A stretch of DNA of 64,000 nt, taken from assembly GCA_013335535.1 (NCBI GenBank), contig JAAXVL010000001.1, forward strand, positions 327,764-391,763. Direction: 5' to 3'. The notes beneath the pieces were generated by a model. That model was given only the letters and a program-made list of their open reading frames with translations. It did not search any database and was not told where the DNA came from. Within the stretch, counting starts at the first letter, position 1, and each line of letters opens with the position of its first letter. The position numbers were made by a program, and so were the translations under genes. The DNA comes from Azonexaceae bacterium (lineage in GTDB: Bacteria > Pseudomonadota > Gammaproteobacteria > Burkholderiales > Rhodocyclaceae). Shown here piece after piece: positions 12,290 to 41,731 of the stretch.

Positions 12290-12305
12290 TGGTCCGCTTG
12301 TTGCT
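12290..12305 (+). promoter_or_regulatory. Putative sigma-54 promoter of hyb operon (TGGTCCGCTTGTTGCT, GG-N10-GC)
   Basis: Close to TGGCACG-N4-TTGCW; upstream of hybO ATG at 12396. Confidence 0.6.
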
Positions 12306-21758: not shown

Positions 21759-23450
21759 GTGCGAATTCTCCTCATTACACATAGCTTCAACGGCCTGACC
21801 CAGCGCCTTTATTGCGAGCTGGCGACGCTTGGCCACGAAATCAGCATCGAGTTCGACATCGCCGATGCAGTGACCGAAGAGGCTGTGGCCTTGTTCCGGC
21901 CCGATCTGATCATTGCGCCGTTTTTGAAACGGGCGATTCCAGAATCGATCTGGTCGCAGCATTGCTGCCTGATCGTTCATCCCGGCCCGGTCGGCGACCG
22001 TGGTCCGTCGGCGCTCGACTGGGCGATTCAGCTGGGTGTCAAGGAATGGGGTGTCACAGTGTTACAGGCCGAAGCAGAGATGGACGCGGGGCCGGTCTGG
22101 GCGTCGGCGACCTTTCCGATGCGGCCGGCGCGCAAGGCGTCGATCTACCGCAATGAAGTGACCGAGGCGGCCGTTCAGGCGGTGATTGCCACGGTCAACC
22201 GGAAAAATGAGCCAAATTTCAAAGCGGAGCGCGTACCCGGGCAAGCGCATGCGCTGATCAAGCAGGCCGACCGCGTCATCGACTGGCAGACCGAAACCAG
22301 TGCCGCTGTCCTGGCCAAACTCAATGCTGCCGATGGCTTTCCCGGCGTGGCCGACACCTTGTTCGGCCAGCCCTGTCATTTGTTCGACGCCTGGCCGGAA
22401 GCCTCGCTCAAGGGCGAGCCGGGCGCTTTGCTCGGCCGGCGTGAAACGGCCATTTGCCGAGCGACGGCCGATGGTGCGGTGTGGCTCGGCCACGTCAAGC
22501 CAGCGGGCGGCATCAAGCTGCCGGCGACGCAGGCCTGCCCGGAGGCGAACGAGTTGCCCGAGTTGCCGCTAACTGAGGGCTACTGGAAATCGCCGGTTCC
22601 CACCTGGCAGGACATCGCCTACGAGGAGGCCGAATGGAACGGAAATTCGGTCGGTTTCCTGAGTTTCGAGTTTTATAACGGCGCGATGAGCACGGCCCAG
22701 TGCCGACGGCTGACCGAAGCCTTCCGGTGGGCGACGGCGCGACCGACCCGGGTCATCGTGCTGCGTGGCGGCAGCGATTTCTGGTCGAACGGCATCCACC
22801 TCAACACCATCGAGGCCGCGGAGAGCCCGGCCGACGAGTCGTGGGCCAACATCAACGCCATCGACGATCTGGCCGAGGCCATTTTGCGCTGTGAAACGCA
22901 GTTGACCGTGGCGGCCGTAGGCGGCAATGCCGGTGCCGGCGGCTGCTTCCTGGCGCGTGCCGCCGATTTTGTCTGGGCCCGTGACGGCGTGATGCTCAAC
23001 CCGCATTACAAGAACATGGGTAACCTGTACGGTTCGGAATTCTGGACCTACCTGCTGCCTCCGCGCGTCGGCGAAGAGGGTGCGAAGGCCATCATGCGCC
23101 ACCGCCTGCCGATGACGGCGCCGGAAGCAGTGCAACTCGGCTTCTACGATGCCTGCCTGCCCGGTCCGGGGTTTCACGTCGATGTTGCCCGGCGTGCCGC
23201 CGAACTGGCCGCCGCGCCGGATTTCGCTGAAAAGCTCGCCGCCAAGCAGGCCAAACGCCATGCCGACGAAGCCGCCAAGCCGCTGGCCGCCTACCGTGCC
23301 GCGGAATTGACCGAAATGCGCCGCAATTTCTACGGCTTCGACCCCTCGTACCACGTCGCGCGCTATCATTTCGTCTCCCGCTCGGCGCATTCGTGGACGC
23401 CGCGCCACCTTGCCCGCCACCGCGATCTCGACTGGAAAGTTCCGGCATGA
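21759..23450 (+). CDS. hypX: HypX/HoxX (formyltransferase-like plus enoyl-CoA hydratase-like domains)
   Basis: MRILLITHSFNGLTQRLYCEL; HPGPVGDRGPSALDWAI; crotonase-like half. Confidence 0.93.
   Translation: MRILLITHSFNGLTQRLYCELATLGHEISIEFDIADAVTEEAVALFRPDLIIAPFLKRAIPESIWSQHCCLIVHPGPVGDRGPSALDWAIQLGVKEWGVTVLQAEAEMDAGPVWASATFPMRPARKASIYRNEVTEAAVQAVIATVNRKNEPNFKAERVPGQAHALIKQADRVIDWQTETSAAVLAKLNAADGFPGVADTLFGQPCHLFDAWPEASLKGEPGALLGRRETAICRATADGAVWLGHVKPAGGIKLPATQACPEANELPELPLTEGYWKSPVPTWQDIAYEEAEWNGNSVGFLSFEFYNGAMSTAQCRRLTEAFRWATARPTRVIVLRGGSDFWSNGIHLNTIEAAESPADESWANINAIDDLAEAILRCETQLTVAAVGGNAGAGGCFLARAADFVWARDGVMLNPHYKNMGNLYGSEFWTYLLPPRVGEEGAKAIMRHRLPMTAPEAVQLGFYDACLPGPGFHVDVARRAAELAAAPDFAEKLAAKQAKRHADEAAKPLAAYRAAELTEMRRNFYGFDPSYHVARYHFVSRSAHSWTPRHLARHRDLDWKVPA
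22189..22223 (+). repeat. Dispersed 35-bp motif copy 6 (inside hypX)
   Basis: ccacggtcaaccggaaaaatgagccaaatttcaaa. Confidence 0.92.
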
Positions 23451-24946
23451 CCCTTCCGTCTTCCCACAGCAGCCTGCGCCGCCTGCCGGCGATCCTCGTT
23501 GTCGATGACGAGGTGCGCTCGCAGGAAGCCCTGCGCCGGACGCTAGAAGAAGATTTCGAGGTGCACTGCGCCTCCAGTGCCGACGAAGGCATGGAGATCC
23601 TGCAAAACGAGCAGTCGACCGCAGCCATCCGCATCGTGCTCTGCGACCAGCGCATGCCGGGCACCACCGGTGTCCAGTTTCTGAAGGAAGTGCGCACTCG
23701 CTGGCCGGACATCGTCCGCATCATCCTTTCCGGCTATACCGACGCCGAAGACATCATCACCGGCGTCAACGAAGCCGGCATCTGGCAATACCTGCTCAAG
23801 CCCTGGCAACCGGAACAACTGCTGCTGACCCTGCAGCGCGCCGCCGAAGTCTGGCGCCTGCAGCAGGAAAACCAGCGCCTGTCGCTCGATCTGCGCACGG
23901 CCGAACCGGTGCTCAAAAGGCAGGTCGATCACAAGCAGGAAAAAGTCAAAAGTAGCTTCGGTCTGGCCGGCCTGATCCGCGCCCCGGGCAGCCCGATCAA
24001 CGCCGTTTGCGACATGGTCGGCCGCGTTGCGCCGTTCGACCTGTCGGTTATGGTCACCGGTGAATCGGGCACCGGCAAGGAAATGATCGCCCGCGCCATC
24101 CACTACGAGAGCCGCCGGGCGAGCAAGGCCTTCATCACCGAGAACTGCGGCGCCCTGCCCGACACCCTGCTCGAATCCGAACTGTTCGGTTACAAGCGCG
24201 GCGCCTTCACCGGCGCTGCCGAGGACAGGGTCGGCCTGTTCCAGCAGGCCGATGGCGGTACGCTGTTCCTCGACGAAATCGGCGAAACCAGTCCGGCCTT
24301 TCAGGTTAAATTGCTGCGCGTGCTGCAGGAAGGCGAGTTCCGCCCGCTCGGCAGCAATCGCCCGGTCCATGTCGACGTCCGGGTCATCGCCGCGACCAAC
24401 CGCGACCTCGAAGACGACGTGCGCACTGGCCGCTTCCGCGAAGATCTTTACTACCGGCTGGCGACCATCGCCCTCCACGTGCCGCCGCTGCGCGACCGGC
24501 CGATGGACCTGCCGCTGCTCGCCCGCCGCCTGCTCGACAGCAGTTGCGCCGCCCTCGGCAAACCGGTCGATGGTTTCACCAACGAGGCGCTCGCCTGCAT
24601 CGCCGCCTACCGCTGGCCGGGCAATGTGCGCGAGCTGCAGAATGAAATCCTGCGCATGGTTGCACTGGCCACGACGCCGCAACTTGGCGCCGACCTTTTG
24701 TCGCCGCGTGTATTGCGCACGCCGATTGGCGACGTAGACGAGGCCCGCCCGGACGACGAGCTGGCCTGGGCCGCCGGCCTGAGCGGCGGCCTAAAGGAAC
24801 GCATGGACCAGCTCGAAATGCACGTCCTCAAGGAGGCGATGATCCGCCATCGCTGGAACAAGTCGCGCGCTGCCCGGGAATTGGGGCTGTCGCGCGTCGG
24901 CCTGCGCGCCAAGCTGGTCCGCCACGGGCTGGAGCAGGCCGAATGA
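23447..24946 (+). CDS. hoxA: NtrC-family sigma-54-dependent hydrogenase regulator HoxA/HupR
   Basis: REC domain; [25 protein letters not shown]-terminus; adjacent to hoxBC. Confidence 0.92.
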
Positions 24947-25944
24947 AAGTGCTCTGGCTGCAAAGTGGCGGCTGCGGCGGCTGCACGCAGTCGATGCTGT
25001 GCTCGGAGCCGCGTTCGCTGTTCGACGAACTGCGCGATGCCGGCATCGAATTCCTCTGGCACCCGGCGCTCTCGGTCGACAGTGGTGAAGAAGCGCTCAC
25101 CCTTCTCGAAGACTGCGCTGAAGGGCGGCTCGCCTTCGATGCGCTGTGCATCGAAGGAGCGATGCTGCGTGGCCCGAACGGCACCGGCAAATTCCACCTG
25201 ATGGCCGGCAGCGGCCGGCCGCTGACCGAATGGGTCGAGCGCCTGGCGCGTCACGCCAAGTGGGTTTTTGCCATTGGTTCGTGCACGGCTTACGGCGGAT
25301 TCTCGGCCAACACGCCAGGCAATCCGCTCGAAGCCTGCGGCCTGCAGTTCGACGAACAGACACCGGGCGGCCTGCTCGGCACCGATTTCCAGTCGGCCGC
25401 CGGCCTGCCGGTGATCAACATCGCCGGCTGCCCGACGCATCCCGGCTGGGTCGTCGACACGCTGGAAAAAGTGGCGCTGGAAGGCATGGTTGCCACCGAC
25501 CTCGACGAATATGGCCGCCCGCTGCTCTACGCCGGCCAACTCGTCCACCACGGCTGCGCCCGCAACGAATATTACGAATTCAAGGCCAGCGCCGAAAAGC
25601 AGTCCGACCTCGGCTGCCTCATGGAAAACCTCGGCTGCAAGGGCACCCAGGCCCACGCTGACTGCAACCTGCGGCCGTGGAACGGCAGTGGTTCCTGCCT
25701 GCGCGGCGGCTTCGCCTGCATCGCCTGTACCGAGCCGGGCTTCGAGTCGCCCGGCCACGCTTTCCAGGAGACGCCCAAGCTGGCCGGCATCCCGATCGGC
25801 CTGCCGACCGACATGCCGAAAGCCTGGTTCGTCGCGCTCGCCGCCCTCTCCAAATCGGCGACGCCGAAGCGGGTGCGCAACAATTCGGTGGTCGATCACC
25901 CGGTCGTTTTGCCAGCCATTCGCAAGAAGGGCGGCGGCAAGTGA
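24943..25944 (+). CDS. hoxB: Regulatory (H2-sensing) hydrogenase small subunit
   Basis: No Tat signal; SGGCGGCTQSMLCSEP. Confidence 0.92.
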   Translation: MKVLWLQSGGCGGCTQSMLCSEPRSLFDELRDAGIEFLWHPALSVDSGEEALTLLEDCAEGRLAFDALCIEGAMLRGPNGTGKFHLMAGSGRPLTEWVERLARHAKWVFAIGSCTAYGGFSANTPGNPLEACGLQFDEQTPGGLLGTDFQSAAGLPVINIAGCPTHPGWVVDTLEKVALEGMVATDLDEYGRPLLYAGQLVHHGCARNEYYEFKASAEKQSDLGCLMENLGCKGTQAHADCNLRPWNGSGSCLRGGFACIACTEPGFESPGHAFQETPKLAGIPIGLPTDMPKAWFVALAALSKSATPKRVRNNSVVDHPVVLPAIRKKGGGK

Positions 25945-27359
25945 GCCGGATTGTCGTCGGGCCGTTCAATCGCGTCGAAGGCGATCTTGAAGTGACACTC
26001 GAACTCGACGCTGGCCGCATCGCGTCGGCCCAGGTCAATTCACCGCTGTTCAGAGGCTTCGAGCAGACTCTGGTGGGCCGCGCCCCGCTCGACGCCCTGG
26101 CCATCGTGCCGCGTATCTGCGGCATCTGCTCGGTTGCCCAGTCGGCGGCCGCCGCTGAGGCGCTAGCCGGGGCGATGGGCATCGTTCCCACGGTCAACGG
26201 GAAAATATCGCGAAAATTGATAACTGCGACCGAGAACCTGGCCGATCACCTGACGCACTTTTACCTCTTTTTCATGCCCGACTTCGCCCGCCCGGCCTAT
26301 GCCGGACGTGCCTGGCACGAGTCTGCGGTGCGCCGTTTTACAGCGGTCAAAGGCGATGCCGCCGCCGAGGTTCTGCCGGCCCGCGCCGGTTTTCTCCGGC
26401 TCATGGGTTTTCTCGCCGGCCGCTGGCCGCACACGCTGGCCATCCAGCCCGGCGGCAGCACGCGGGCGATCACCGCCGGCGAACGTATCCGCCTGCTGGC
26501 ACAGTTGCGCGAATTCCGCAGCTTTCTCGAAAAACGGCTGTTCGGCGACGCCCTGGCCAGCGTCGCTCAACTGGCCAGCAAGGAAGCCTTGCTGGCCTGG
26601 TCCGATGGACGCCTTGGCGATTTCCCCGCCTTTCTGAGCGCAGCGACCGATCTCGGTCTGGACAAGACGGGGGGTGCCTACGATGCCTTCCTGTCTTATG
26701 GTGCCTACGACCTGTTTCCGGCCGGCACCTGGCAAGCCGGGCAGGCCGCCGTCTTCGATCCGGTCGCCATCGATGAAGATACGTCCAGCGCCTGGCTGGT
26801 ATCCGGGCAGCCGCGCCATCCGGCGCAGGGTGAAACGGTCGTCGACGCCAACAAGCCCGACGCCTACACCTGGTGCAAGGCGCCGCGCTACGCCGGCCAG
26901 CCCTTTGAGGTCGGCGCCCTGGCCCGCCAGATCATTGCCTGTCATCCGTTGGCGCTCGACCTCGTGCAGCGCGACGGCGCCAGCGTCATGGCCCGTGTCG
27001 TCGCCCGCCTGCTTGAACTGGCCCTCGTCCTGCCGGCCATGGAAGCCTGGGTCCAGGCGCTGCAGCCCGGTGAGCCGTTCTGCGCCCATGGCACCATGCC
27101 CGACGACGCCACTGGCTCTGGTTTGGTCGAAGCCGCCCGCGGCAGCCTCGGCCACTGGCTGAGCATCAAACGCGGCCGCATCGAGCGCTATCAGATCATT
27201 GCCCCGACCACGTGGAACTTCTCGCCACGCGATGCCTCCAATCAGCCCGGCCCGCTCGAGAAGGCGCTTGTCGGCTTGCCCGCCGGCGAGGGCGCGCCAC
27301 CAACCGTTCAGCACGTCGTGCGCTCGTTCGATCCGTGCATGGTGTGTACCGTGCATTAG
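25941..27359 (+). CDS. hoxC: Regulatory (H2-sensing) hydrogenase large subunit
   Basis: GTG start; RICGICSVAQS; ends exactly at DPCMVCTVH* with no C-terminal extension. Confidence 0.94.
   Translation: MSRIVVGPFNRVEGDLEVTLELDAGRIASAQVNSPLFRGFEQTLVGRAPLDALAIVPRICGICSVAQSAAAAEALAGAMGIVPTVNGKISRKLITATENLADHLTHFYLFFMPDFARPAYAGRAWHESAVRRFTAVKGDAAAEVLPARAGFLRLMGFLAGRWPHTLAIQPGGSTRAITAGERIRLLAQLREFRSFLEKRLFGDALASVAQLASKEALLAWSDGRLGDFPAFLSAATDLGLDKTGGAYDAFLSYGAYDLFPAGTWQAGQAAVFDPVAIDEDTSSAWLVSGQPRHPAQGETVVDANKPDAYTWCKAPRYAGQPFEVGALARQIIACHPLALDLVQRDGASVMARVVARLLELALVLPAMEAWVQALQPGEPFCAHGTMPDDATGSGLVEAARGSLGHWLSIKRGRIERYQIIAPTTWNFSPRDASNQPGPLEKALVGLPAGEGAPPTVQHVVRSFDPCMVCTVH
26188..26222 (+). repeat. 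Dispersed 35-bp motif copy 7 (inside hoxC)
   Basis: ccacggtcaacgggaaaatatcgcgaaaattgata. Confidence 0.75.
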
Positions 27360-36925: not shown

Positions 36926-37390
36926 ATGGAACGCTTCACAATTTCTCTGGACGAAGCTTTGGCCAGGGAGTTCGACCAACTGATTGCGGCCCGCGGTTAC
37001 AGCAACCGCTCGGAAGCCGTGCGCGACCTGATTCGCGGCGCCATCGAGAGCGACCGCCAGCGCGAAACGCCGTCCGGCCACTGCGTCGCCAACCTGTCTT
37101 ACGTCTACAACCACCATGAACGCGAACTGGCCGAGCGCCTGACCGGCCTGCAGCATGATCATCACGATCTGACGGTGGCCGCCCTGCACAGTCACCTCGA
37201 TCACGACAACTGTCTGGAGTCGGTCATCCTCAAAGGCGCCACCGCCGATGTCCGCCAGTTTGCCGACGCGCTCATGGCCGAGCGTGGCGTTCGCCACGGC
37301 AAGCTCAACGTCATCGCGCTCGAAGCGGAACATCATCACGCCCACGACGAACACGGCGAAGCCCATGTCCACTACCGTCCCGCCCGCTGA
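36926..37390 (+). CDS. nikR: Nickel-responsive transcriptional regulator NikR
   Basis: RHH N-terminus MERFTISLDEALAREFDQLIAARGYSNRSEAVRDLIR; ACT-like Ni domain; His-rich tail. Confidence 0.95.
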   Translation: MERFTISLDEALAREFDQLIAARGYSNRSEAVRDLIRGAIESDRQRETPSGHCVANLSYVYNHHERELAERLTGLQHDHHDLTVAALHSHLDHDNCLESVILKGATADVRQFADALMAERGVRHGKLNVIALEAEHHHAHDEHGEAHVHYRPAR

Positions 37391-38711
37391 CCTGGCGGAC
37401 AGCTCGCCCCTGCCGCCCGGCGGCGAGCAGGCGTGGATCGAAGTCATCCAGAAAATGGACGAGGTCTATAACGACCTCCTGCAGTACGAAGTCGCCCTCG
37501 AAGAAAAGAACGCCGCACTCGAGGAATCGCACCAGTTCATCGAGAGCGTGCTCACCTCGATGTCCGACATCCTCATCGTCTGCGACCGCAACGGGGGGAT
37601 CGTCGAGGTCAATTCCTCGCTCCTGCATTTCTCCGGCAAGACGGCCGACGAACTTGAAAAGACAGCGGTCTTCGAGCTTTTTGCCGACGAGGTCGAAAAG
37701 GCCAAGGCGCGCGATATCTTCGCCCGTTTCGGCCGCGAAGGGATTCATGACTGCGAGTTTTTCCTGCGCGCCGGCGACGGTTCGACCGTGCCGGTGTCGA
37801 TGAACTGCACGCCGCGTCTGTCGCAGACTGGCAAACTCATGGGCATGGTCGTTACCGGCCGCCCGGTCGGCGAACTGCGCAAGGCCTACTCCGCGCTACG
37901 GCAGGCGCACGACGATCTTAAACGCACGCAAGGCCAACTCCTGCACGCCGAAAAGATGGTCTCGCTCGGCCGTCTGGTGGCCGGCGTGGCGCATGAACTC
38001 AACAACCCGATCAGCTTCGTGCTCGGCAACGTGCTCTCGCTCAAGCGCTACGCCAGCCGGCTCGAAAGCTATCTCAGCGCCGTGCACGCCAGCGATGCGG
38101 CAGACGATGCGGCGCTCAAGGCCATGCGCGACGAATTGCGCATTGACCGCATCCTGGCCGACATGCCGCACCTCATCGACGGCATGATCGAAGGCGCCGA
38201 GCGGACGCGCGATATCGTCGATGCGCTCAAGCGTTTTTCGGCCGTCGACAAGATGACGCCCGAGCAGGTCAGCCTCAACGAGGTCGTCGAGCGCTCGGTG
38301 CGCTGGGTCGTGCAGAGCGCAGCGGCCAAATTCACGGTCAACACGAATTTATCGCCAAATTTGAAATGTTCAGGGTCGTCCGGGCAGTTGCAGCAGGTCG
38401 TCATGAACCTCGTGCAGAACGCCTGCGACGCTACGGCTAGCCTGCCTGAGCCGAAGCTGAACATCACCGGCGACATCGAGGGAGGCATGGCCGTGCTGCG
38501 CTTTACCGACAACGGCCCGGGCATTCCCGAGGCCAACCTGAGCCGCCTGTTCGAGCCCTTCTTTACGACCAAACCGGTCGGCCAGGGTACCGGGCTGGGC
38601 TTGTCGATCAGCTACGGCATCGTCGAGCGGCACGGCGGTAAGCTCAGTGCGCGCAACGTGCCGGGCAATGGGGCGGAATTCGTTCTTTCACTTCCGGTGG
38701 AAGGTCGCTAA
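37365..38711 (+). CDS. hoxJ: PAS sensor histidine kinase HoxJ/HupT
   Basis: EVIQKMDEVYNDLLQYEVALEEKNAALEESHQFI; LVAGVAHELNNPISFVLGN; ATG overlaps nikR by 26 nt. Confidence 0.88.
   Translation: MSTTVPPADLADSSPLPPGGEQAWIEVIQKMDEVYNDLLQYEVALEEKNAALEESHQFIESVLTSMSDILIVCDRNGGIVEVNSSLLHFSGKTADELEKTAVFELFADEVEKAKARDIFARFGREGIHDCEFFLRAGDGSTVPVSMNCTPRLSQTGKLMGMVVTGRPVGELRKAYSALRQAHDDLKRTQGQLLHAEKMVSLGRLVAGVAHELNNPISFVLGNVLSLKRYASRLESYLSAVHASDAADDAALKAMRDELRIDRILADMPHLIDGMIEGAERTRDIVDALKRFSAVDKMTPEQVSLNEVVERSVRWVVQSAAAKFTVNTNLSPNLKCSGSSGQLQQVVMNLVQNACDATASLPEPKLNITGDIEGGMAVLRFTDNGPGIPEANLSRLFEPFFTTKPVGQGTGLGLSISYGIVERHGGKLSARNVPGNGAEFVLSLPVEGR
38332..38366 (+). repeat. Dispersed 35-bp motif copy 11 (degenerate, inside hoxJ)
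   Basis: tcacggtcaacacgaatttatcgccaaatttgaaa. Confidence 0.6.
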
Positions 38712-38777
38712 CCACTCGCGGCCCGCGTTGCGCGTCCAAAAGGCCACGAAGTCAATACGAACAATGACTTATTGATC

Positions 38778-38793
38778 TGGCACGCTCTTTGTA
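38778..38793 (+). promoter_or_regulatory. Putative sigma-54 promoter upstream of nickel permease (TGGCACGCTCTTTGTA, GG-N10-GT)
   Basis: TGGCACG -24 element; -12 GT variant. Confidence 0.55.
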
Positions 38794-38817
38794 TGAAGAT
38801 GATAAAAACCTTCATAC
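38791..38817. promoter_or_regulatory. Candidate NikR operator GTATGAAG-N11-CTTCATAC
   Basis: 8-bp perfect inverted repeat containing GTATGA-N15-TCATAC (E. coli nik operator is GTATGA-N16-TCATAC); overlaps the -12 element. Confidence 0.6.
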
Positions 38818-38824
38818 GGCGTCC

Positions 38825-39634
38825 ATGGAAAACCTGCCTTCCGACTGGCTGTCCCTGCTGATCCTGACCTTCGTGCTCGGCATGAAGCATGGCTTCGACG
38901 CCGACCACCTCGCCACCATCGATGGCCTGACCCGCTACAACGCCCGTTCCCGGCCCGCGCTGGCGCGCTACTGCGGCACGCTGTTTTCGCTCGGCCACGG
39001 TGCCGTGGTCATGGCCATCGCCCTCGGCGTCTCGGCGCTGGCCGGCCAGTGGGAAGTGCCGGAATGGTTCGGCACGCTCGGCGCGGTGATTTCCATCGCC
39101 TTCCTCCTCGCGCTTGGCAGCCTTAACCTCGCCGCCGTGCTCGCCGCCGAACCGCATGAAATCGTCCAGCCGGTCGGCCTCAAGGGCCGCCTGCTCGGCA
39201 ACCTGCGCCATGTTTCGCACCCGGCCCTGATCGCGTTGGTCGGCGCCCTGTTCGCCCTGTCCTTCGACACCCTGTCGCAAGCCGCCTTCTTCGCCCTGAC
39301 CGCCACGCAGTTTGGCGGCTGGGAGCATGCGCTGATCCTCGCCCTGCTCTTCATGCTCGGCATGCTGCTCACCGACGGCATCAACGGCCTGTGGATTGCC
39401 CGGCTCATCGCCCGCGCCGACCAGGTCGCGCTTATTGCATCGCGCGTCATGGGGCTGGTGGTGTCGGGCGTCAGTCTGCTCGTCGCCGCCCTCGGCGCCG
39501 CCAAGATGCTCTCGCCGGCGGTTGATGCCTGGAGCGAGGGCAAGGAACTAGTTTTCGGCTTTACGCTGGTGGCGATCATCGCCCTCAGCTTTATTGCGGC
39601 GGTGCGCCTGACGCGCCGGCCGGCTGCGGTTTAG
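38825..39634 (+). CDS. hoxN: NiCoT-family nickel/cobalt permease
   Basis: GMKHGFDADHLATIDGLTR; SLGHGAVV signatures. Confidence 0.88.
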   Translation: MENLPSDWLSLLILTFVLGMKHGFDADHLATIDGLTRYNARSRPALARYCGTLFSLGHGAVVMAIALGVSALAGQWEVPEWFGTLGAVISIAFLLALGSLNLAAVLAAEPHEIVQPVGLKGRLLGNLRHVSHPALIALVGALFALSFDTLSQAAFFALTATQFGGWEHALILALLFMLGMLLTDGINGLWIARLIARADQVALIASRVMGLVVSGVSLLVAALGAAKMLSPAVDAWSEGKELVFGFTLVAIIALSFIAAVRLTRRPAAV

Positions 39635-39679: not shown

Positions 39680-41731
39680 ATGCGATTAAGACAAAAATTA
39701 ATTAGTTCATATTTGATGGTGGCGATGAGCGCTGTTACGGCTCATGAGTCGACCGAACTGTCCACCGTCGAAGTCCGCGCCAAGGCGGAAAACCTCGAAG
39801 GCATCGCGGCGTCAGGCAGCGAAGGCGTGGTTTCGAGCCAGCGGCTGGCGGCCGTGCCCATCCTGCGACCCGGCGAGGCGCTCGAGATGGTTCCGGGCCT
39901 GATCGTCACGCAGCATGCCGGCGACGGCAAGGCCAACCAGTATTTCCTGCGCGGCTTCAATCTTGACCACGGCACCGATTTCGCGACTTACCTCGGCGGC
40001 GTGCCGGTCAACATGCCGACGCATGCCCACGGCCAGGGCTACACCGACCTCAATTTCCTGATTCCGGAACTGGTCGACCGCATTGCCTTCCGCAAAGGGC
40101 CGTACTTCGCCGAGGAAGGCGATTTTTCCTCGGCCGGCGCGGCGCACATCGACTACTTCCGTCAGATGGAAGCCGGCCTGGCCCAGCTGACGCTGGGCGG
40201 CAACGGCTATACCCGGGCCCTGCTGGCCGATTCGCCGCGTGTCGCCGACGGGCATCTGCTTTACGGTCTGGAACTGTTCCACAACGACGGGCCGTGGCAG
40301 GTCGAGGAGCATTACAAGAAATTCAACGGGGTGCTGCGCTATAGCCGGGGCACGCGTGACGACGGCTGGTCGGTGAGCGGCATGGCCTACCATGGCAAAT
40401 GGACGTCGACCGACCAGATCGCCCAGCGGGCCATCGACAGCGGGCTGGTCGACCGCTTTGGCTCGCTCGACCCGACGACCGGTGGCGAGACGCATCGCTA
40501 CAGCTTGTCCGGCGACTGGGCCAGACGCTGGGCCAACAGCCAGAGCAAGGCCAATGTCTGGGTGCTCGAATCGGGCCTCGACCTGTGGTCCAACTTTACC
40601 TACTGCACGACGGGCTGCCCGCCGGGCGACCAGTTCAAGCAGGCCGAGCGCCGCCTGGCCGGCGGCATGGCGGCCTCGCACGCGATGTTCGATCGCTGGG
40701 GCAGCTTCGACGTGATCAATTCCTTCGGTTTCCAGACGCGGGCCGACCGCCTGCATCCGGTCGGTCTTTACGCGACGAGCGAGCGGCAGACCGTCAGCAC
40801 GGTTCGTGAGGACCGTGTGACGCAGCGCAGCCTCGGCCTGTGGGCGCAGAACGAAACGCGGTGGACCGACTGGTTCCGTTCCGTGCAGGGCCTGCGTGCC
40901 GATGCCTATGACTTCACGGTCGACAGCAACATCGCGGCCAACTCGGGCAAGGCCGACGATCACATGGTGACGCCCAAGCTGTCGCTGATCTTCGGGCCGT
41001 GGCGCAAGACCGAGCTTTACCTCAACTACGGCCACGGCTTTCACTCCAACGATGCGCGCGGCGCGACCACCCGTGTCGATCCAGCCGATGGCGTGACGCC
41101 GGTACAGTCAGTCAAGCCGTTGGTCCGGACCAAAGGTTACGAGCTCGGCCTGCGTTCGGAAATTGTGCCGGGTTGGCAGTCGACCGTCGCGTTGTGGCAA
41201 CTCGATTCGGCCTCCGAACTGCTTTTCGTCGGCGATGCCGGGACAACCGAAGCATCCCGTCCGTCGCGCCGCTACGGTGTCGAATGGACCAATCTCTACG
41301 TGCTGGCCGACTGGTTGGGGATCGACGCCGACCTCGCCTGGTCGCATGCCCGCTTCCGCGACCACGACCCGGTGGCTGGCGACTACATCCCGGGGGCGGT
41401 GACGACGACGGCCAACATCGGCCTGACCATCGACCACCTTGGCCCGTGGTTCGGTGCTGTACGCCTGCGCTACTTCGGCCCGCGGCCGCTGGTCGAGGAC
41501 ATCTCGGTACGCTCACAGTCATCGGCACTGGCCAACCTGCGTGTCGGCTACAAATTCGGCCAGCGCACGCAGCTGGCGCTCGACGTCTACAACCTGTTCG
41601 ACCGCAAGGTGAATGACATCGAATACTGGTATGACTCGCAACTGGCCAGCGAAGTCGCCCCGCAGTCCGATCGTCATATCCACCCGACCGAACCGAGGAC
41701 GTTTCGCCTGACGCTCAGCCACAAATTCTGA
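39680..41731 (+). CDS. TonB-dependent outer membrane receptor (candidate nickel-chelate receptor)
   Basis: Plug domain, QYFLRGFNLDHGTDFATYLGGVPVN, C-terminal beta-strand FRLTLSHKF. Confidence 0.85.
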   Translation: MRLRQKLISSYLMVAMSAVTAHESTELSTVEVRAKAENLEGIAASGSEGVVSSQRLAAVPILRPGEALEMVPGLIVTQHAGDGKANQYFLRGFNLDHGTDFATYLGGVPVNMPTHAHGQGYTDLNFLIPELVDRIAFRKGPYFAEEGDFSSAGAAHIDYFRQMEAGLAQLTLGGNGYTRALLADSPRVADGHLLYGLELFHNDGPWQVEEHYKKFNGVLRYSRGTRDDGWSVSGMAYHGKWTSTDQIAQRAIDSGLVDRFGSLDPTTGGETHRYSLSGDWARRWANSQSKANVWVLESGLDLWSNFTYCTTGCPPGDQFKQAERRLAGGMAASHAMFDRWGSFDVINSFGFQTRADRLHPVGLYATSERQTVSTVREDRVTQRSLGLWAQNETRWTDWFRSVQGLRADAYDFTVDSNIAANSGKADDHMVTPKLSLIFGPWRKTELYLNYGHGFHSNDARGATTRVDPADGVTPVQSVKPLVRTKGYELGLRSEIVPGWQSTVALWQLDSASELLFVGDAGTTEASRPSRRYGVEWTNLYVLADWLGIDADLAWSHARFRDHDPVAGDYIPGAVTTTANIGLTIDHLGPWFGAVRLRYFGPRPLVEDISVRSQSSALANLRVGYKFGQRTQLALDVYNLFDRKVNDIEYWYDSQLASEVAPQSDRHIHPTEPRTFRLTLSHKF

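Follow-up and report, generated by a model that had tools for sequence, protein, structure and literature searches.

Genes around the nickel permease

The stretch of DNA analysed here (the window, 64,000 nucleotides) comes from an organism whose named relatives place it in Azonexus/Dechloromonas, a group living in soil and water. Besides two hydrogenase gene sets, hyp genes and hoxBC, the window encodes the following genes.

23393-24946, + strand: hoxA-type sigma-54 activator with receiver, AAA+ and Fis HTH domains (PF00158, PF00072), 59% identical to HoxA of pHG1
36926-37390, + strand: nikR, Ni-responsive ribbon-helix-helix repressor (NF002815, 207 bits vs. a cut-off of 83)
37365-38711, + strand: hoxJ-type soluble PAS histidine kinase (PAS, HisKA and HATPase domains), whose first 26 bp overlap the end of nikR
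38825-39634, + strand: NicO-family nickel permease of 269 aa (PF03824, 63.3 bits vs. a cut-off of 27.7)
39680-41731, + strand: TonB-dependent receptor (PF00593/PF07715), 45 bp behind the permease gene

The permease carries the H-x4-D-H motif as HGFDADH. It scores 70 bits against the HoxN/HupN/NixA subfamily model (TIGR00802), for which the cut-off is 333, and is not a member of that subfamily; judged by these scores, it is a divergent branch of NicO. The closest solved structure to the NikR encoded here is E. coli NikR (1q5v, E 1.5e-37), and the alignment conserves the equivalents of R3, T5, H76, H87, H89 and C95. An earlier note on this DNA had placed nikR 1.4 kb upstream of the operator described below, which is correct.

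The kinase gene between nikR and the permease encodes a protein 52% identical to HoxJ of C. necator H16, whose gene on pHG1 is flanked by hoxC and hoxN; that note did not make this identification. Such identity rules out an unrelated gene at this position, and the presence of a HoxJ orthologue ties the nikR-nicO locus to H2 signalling. In most genomes of the genus, hoxJ is the gene directly upstream of the permease. HoxJ of C. necator H16 reads GTGLSLSIS, in which S422 disables the kinase, whereas the window protein reads GTGLGLSIS; with a glycine at the inactivating position, it is probably active as a kinase. In the window hoxJ forms an overlapping pair with nikR and lies apart from hoxABC (23393-27359), with GGDEF and NhaA genes between them. 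The TonB-dependent receptor gene is probably in one operon with the permease. Receptors 47-49% identical to it, in two other families (L219 and L222), are preceded by palindromes resembling GTATGA-N15-TCATAC, which suggests that the window receptor is NikR-controlled and nickel-related.

A NikR-type operator overlapping a putative sigma-54 promoter

Immediately upstream of the permease, the + strand from 38778 to 38817 reads TGGCACGCTCTTTGTATGAAG-N11-CTTCATAC (in full, TGGCACGCTCTTTGTATGAAGATGATAAAAACCTTCATAC) and holds three features.

38778-38793, + strand: putative sigma-54 core promoter TGGCACGCTCTTTGTA, with GG at -25/-24 and GT at -13/-12, matching 10 of 11 consensus bases
38791-38817, + strand: NikR-type operator GTATGA-N15-TCATAC, that is, GTATGAAG-N11-CTTCATAC, covering -13 to about +14
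38804, + strand: predicted transcription start, placed by sigma-54 geometry 12 nt after the -12 base and inside the operator

The arrangement is as the earlier note described it: a sigma-54-like GG-N10-GT runs into a palindrome whose half-sites, GTATGA and TCATAC, are those of the E. coli nik operator, with a spacer of 15 here vs. 16 there. The bases GTA are common to the -12 element and the left half-site. Between the end of the operator and the permease ATG (38825) there are 7 bp; the predicted nicO leader is ~21 nt long, and its ribosome-binding site is poor. Translation from a TTG at 38789, which would make the palindrome coding sequence, was considered and ruled out, as two relatives (G010 and G042) start at the equivalent of the ATG. 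In both of these genomes the fused element sits farther out, ~80 bp from the ATG, its two halves still in register with each other, and it is thus not part of the start-codon signal.

The pattern GTATGA-N10-20-TCATAC occurs once in the 64-kb window and in none of 100 shuffles; the complete genome of 4.25 Mb has a single GTATGA-N14-17-TCATAC. The palindrome exceeds chance; the sigma-54 match alone is not significant, with 1.85 equally good matches (10/11) expected by chance per 64 kb. The case therefore rests on comparison between genomes, and the reality of the sigma-54 half on its conservation and its joint loss with the hydrogenase system. Taken by itself, a match at chance level would suit a plain NikR operator on a sigma-70-type promoter, with the sigma-54 look-alike a coincidence or an ancestral residue.

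Conservation and loss of the two halves

We compared 77 genomes of the genus using the pattern TGGCAC-N5-TTGTATGA-N15-TCATAC with at most three mismatches, and used the reversed pattern as a control. The fused element was present in 57 of the 77 genomes, and the control gave 1 match. Across 56 aligned promoters from hydrogenase-bearing genomes, the sigma-54 columns hold 1.35-2.0 bits and the half-sites 1.4-2.0 bits, while the four central operator bases hold 0.1-0.2 bits and the leader and downstream columns 0.05-0.6 bits. The GG, TT and GT columns of the sigma-54 motif are kept in 55-56 of these 56 promoters, and the operator spacer is 15 throughout. This comparison strongly supports a fused sigma-54/NikR element. 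The earlier note had proposed checking whether the overlap is conserved, and it is, both within the Azonexus/Dechloromonas genus and beyond.

The sigma-54 motif is kept in 37 of 39 hydrogenase-bearing genomes vs. 1 of 10 without hydrogenase (Fisher 2.6e-7, a value that ignores relatedness). The operator is kept in all 45 NikR-positive genomes with NicO vs. 1 of 4 without a detected nikR (P 2e-4, again ignoring relatedness). The NicO tree implies at least 7 changes in hydrogenase and 6 in the sigma-54 state, but well-supported branches yield only 3 independent pairs, which do not suffice for a phylogenetically corrected test.

Seven nikR-positive genomes (G019, G020, G022, G054, G066, G069 and G089) have a decayed sigma-54 motif beside an operator with 0-2 mismatches in 12, and all seven are without uptake [NiFe]-hydrogenase (only NuoD-like matches or none), HoxA and HoxJ. 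The class with HoxA and without nikR consists of one genome, G024, in which HoxA, HoxJ and hydrogenases are present, the sigma-54 motif is 10/10 and the operator is gone (5/12 mismatches); nikR was not found in this 89% complete assembly, its usual place included. Two genomes with neither system (G002 and G018) have lost both halves. Exceptions are G067, with a sigma-54 motif of 8/10 and no hydrogenase, and G068 and G074, which have hydrogenase and weak motifs (7 and 6). Among the motif-bearing genomes counted as HoxA-negative, several are fragmented assemblies in which hydrogenase is present; in G005, an end of HoxC lies at a contig edge. Compared across these genomes, the two halves come apart, each with its own protein system: the operator follows nikR, and the sigma-54 half follows uptake hydrogenase, HoxA and HoxJ. 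This supports the proposal of the earlier note that a NikR-like operator lies over the -12 element of a sigma-54 promoter. In one further genome (G023; L024/L109), nicO is broken by an internal TGA and survives only as a fragment; hoxA, hoxJ and nikR are present, the motif has decayed and the operator is nearly intact.

These data bear on the sigma-70 alternative in both directions. Genomes without hydrogenase manage without the sigma-54 motif, as it would allow. Against it, every sigma-54 column is selectively conserved, and only in hydrogenase-bearing genomes; moreover, neither a sigma-70-like promoter nor a terminator was found in 38600-38900. We regard a sigma-70-type promoter as very improbable.

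Slightly less probable still is a sigma-54 promoter whose palindrome serves as an RNA hairpin or binds an unrelated repressor. The palindrome as RNA does fold, at -7 kcal/mol (z -6.7), but a transcript starting at ~38804, the predicted start inside the palindrome, would omit the left arm. Covariation does not exceed that of shuffles, and 11 of 35 sequences do not form the eighth pair. The half-sites also equal those of E. coli NikR and track nikR, which speaks against both a hairpin and an unrelated repressor.

The upstream box and the activator

38756-38774, + strand: third conserved box TACGAACAATGACTTATTG, directly upstream of the -24 element (columns -35 to -17, conserved in 39-53 of 56 promoters)

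This box has 1 exact match in the genome and is absent at the genus hydrogenase promoters examined. It occurs at nicO and nikK promoters, and is also kept in some genomes without the sigma-54 motif (G069) or without nikR (G024). A search for a HoxA enhancer common to the nicO and hydrogenase promoters found none. The box CAATGACTTATTG was considered as a HoxA site and rejected: the window has a CAAT/ATTG look-alike upstream of its hydrogenase promoter at 12290, but the relatives do not conserve it.

A promoter of the same build could instead answer to another NtrC-family protein, for example one responding to nitrogen or oxygen. The outcome of the HoxA site search would fit such an activator, as would a conserved box next to -24 that hydrogenase promoters lack and the motif retained in G067 despite its missing hydrogenase. 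However, the sigma-54 half is lost together with uptake hydrogenase, HoxA and HoxJ, and HoxJ adjoins the permease upstream in most genomes, and we consider a different activator unlikely. We take HoxA to be the likely activator, both because the sigma-54 half tracks the hydrogenase/HoxA/HoxJ system and because hoxJ is the neighbouring gene.

The base at -12

The sole departure of 38778-38793 from the sigma-54 consensus TGGCACG-N4-TTGC is the T at -12. The window offers two promoters for comparison.

12290-12305, + strand: sigma-54 element of a hydrogenase operon, TGGTCCGCTTGTTGCT, with C at -12
528-543: sigma-54-like promoter of the other hydrogenase operon, TGGCACACGCTTTGCG, with C at -12 (TTGC)

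Across the genus, the base is T in 56 of 56 fused promoters and C (TTGC) in 18 of 18 recognisable sigma-54 promoters of hydrogenase operons. Since both kinds of promoter come from the same genus, the T goes with the overlap and does not reflect a general preference of these bacteria. With the GTA of the -12 element coming from the operator, T must stand where the consensus has C; the operator thus appears to dictate the -12 base. Changing this T to C is predicted to give a stronger promoter and weaker repression by NikR.

The element before other genes and outside the genus

In seven genomes (G005, G007, G049, G051, G055, G064 and G081), the same promoter is followed by a DUF4198 (NikK-like) gene in place of NicO, and this gene in turn in G007 by CbiM and an ECF-type ATPase (the NikK-NikL-CbiM-CbiO type). 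In G043, 19 kb separate the NikK-type unit and its promoter from nikR-hoxJ. The element is present twice in three genomes (G043, G049 and G051), its second site lying elsewhere in the genome, in G043 at G043:C62:105642-105681. In L034 and L037, the element (near locus 1501-1540) precedes an unrelated siderophore-type TonB receptor beside nrdB, which makes this protein a candidate nickel receptor.

Four loci from beyond the genus also have the fused element before NicO: L230 (nikR-hoxJ-nicO), L234 (hoxJ-nicO) and, with weaker -24 elements, L191 and L205. In L182-L184 and in Accumulibacter (L192, L194 and L195), the left half-site is TTAAGA (or TTAGGA), the operator is shifted by 1 bp and T is at -12. 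In 369 genomes sampled across the class, there were just three weak matches besides the window, none of them convincing. Upstream of nicO, Halomonas sp. A11-A (L209) and Achromobacter ruhlandii (L210) do not differ in sequence up to about 60 bp, which points to a recent horizontal transfer of the permease region.

It is quite possible, though we stop somewhat short of believing it, that the fused element is a portable H2-on/nickel-off cassette in which the metal repressor sets the -12 base. Such a cassette would have been kept while the importer was exchanged (NicO to NikK-NikL-CbiM), moved 19 kb with its gene in one genome, and arisen or been copied before an unrelated TonB receptor. If so, the strength of the sigma-54 promoter and its repression by nickel could not evolve separately.

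A model for nicO control

In our judgement, nicO is likely to be transcribed from a sigma-54 promoter, probably driven by HoxA, that obeys the logic H2 AND NOT nickel and is shut by Ni-NikR over -13 to about +14. From the layout of the element, we infer that RNA polymerase with sigma-54 (RpoN) would bind TGGCACG-N4-TTGTA and wait there as an inactive closed complex. As long as H2 is missing, HoxJ of C. necator turns HoxA off by phosphorylation (PMC10073562). Here an activator, most likely HoxA under the control of the H2 sensor HoxBC and the kinase HoxJ, would open the closed complex. Once cytoplasmic nickel is sufficient, Ni-NikR would bind GTATGA-N15-TCATAC and exclude polymerase; the bound repressor would lie over the -12 contact, the melting region and the predicted start site, a case of classical promoter occlusion. 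Nickel import would be on with H2, and hence with hydrogenase demand, only while nickel is short.

Discussions of sigma-54 promoters usually centre on activators that act from a distance. An operator for a classical repressor that forms part of the -12 element would make a compact AND-NOT gate, predicted to link hydrogen metabolism to nickel supply.

Comparison with known systems

The operator resembles that of E. coli nikABCDE in its half-sites (GTATGA and TCATAC) and in the orthologous NikR, which has the same DNA-contact (R3 and T5) and Ni-ligand residues. It differs in its spacer (15 here, 16 in E. coli), in its target, a NicO permease, and in lying on a probable sigma-54 core promoter; the E. 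coli nik promoter is of the sigma-70 type. NikR signals described in enterobacteria are 27-28 bp long (PMC545781), which puts N15, with its span of 27, within the known range.

With the HoxA/HoxJ/HoxBC system of C. necator H16 pHG1, the locus shares orthologous HoxA (59%) and HoxJ (52%), and in both hoxJ is next to a nickel permease gene. Unlike on pHG1, nikR-hoxJ-nicO forms a separate cluster away from hoxABC, and the permease is from another branch of NicO. The 401-bp gap between hoxJ and hoxN of pHG1, inspected by eye, holds no GTATGA/TCATAC palindrome. In delta-proteobacterial NikMQO/NikKL systems, a NikR site likewise precedes the NikK/NikL/NikM importers (PMC545781), as it does here in several relatives where NikK-NikL-CbiM-CbiO replaces NicO. 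There, however, the half-site is GTGTTAC and no overlap with sigma-54 is described (PMC545781).

For NicO-type and Nik(K,L)MQO importers, an upstream NikR site was thus already known or predicted (PMC545781, PMC2667541). Our literature search found nothing apt on repressors at sigma-54 core promoters, or on NikR with HoxA or Dechloromonas; most subscription journals lay outside it, and an earlier report is possible. Control of hydrogenase genes by HoxA and sigma-54 is known. The components themselves are therefore known, and the part for which the literature covered gave no description is the predicted fusion of a NikR operator with a sigma-54 promoter, for which the genus supplies natural mutants that have lost the sigma-54 half or the operator half.
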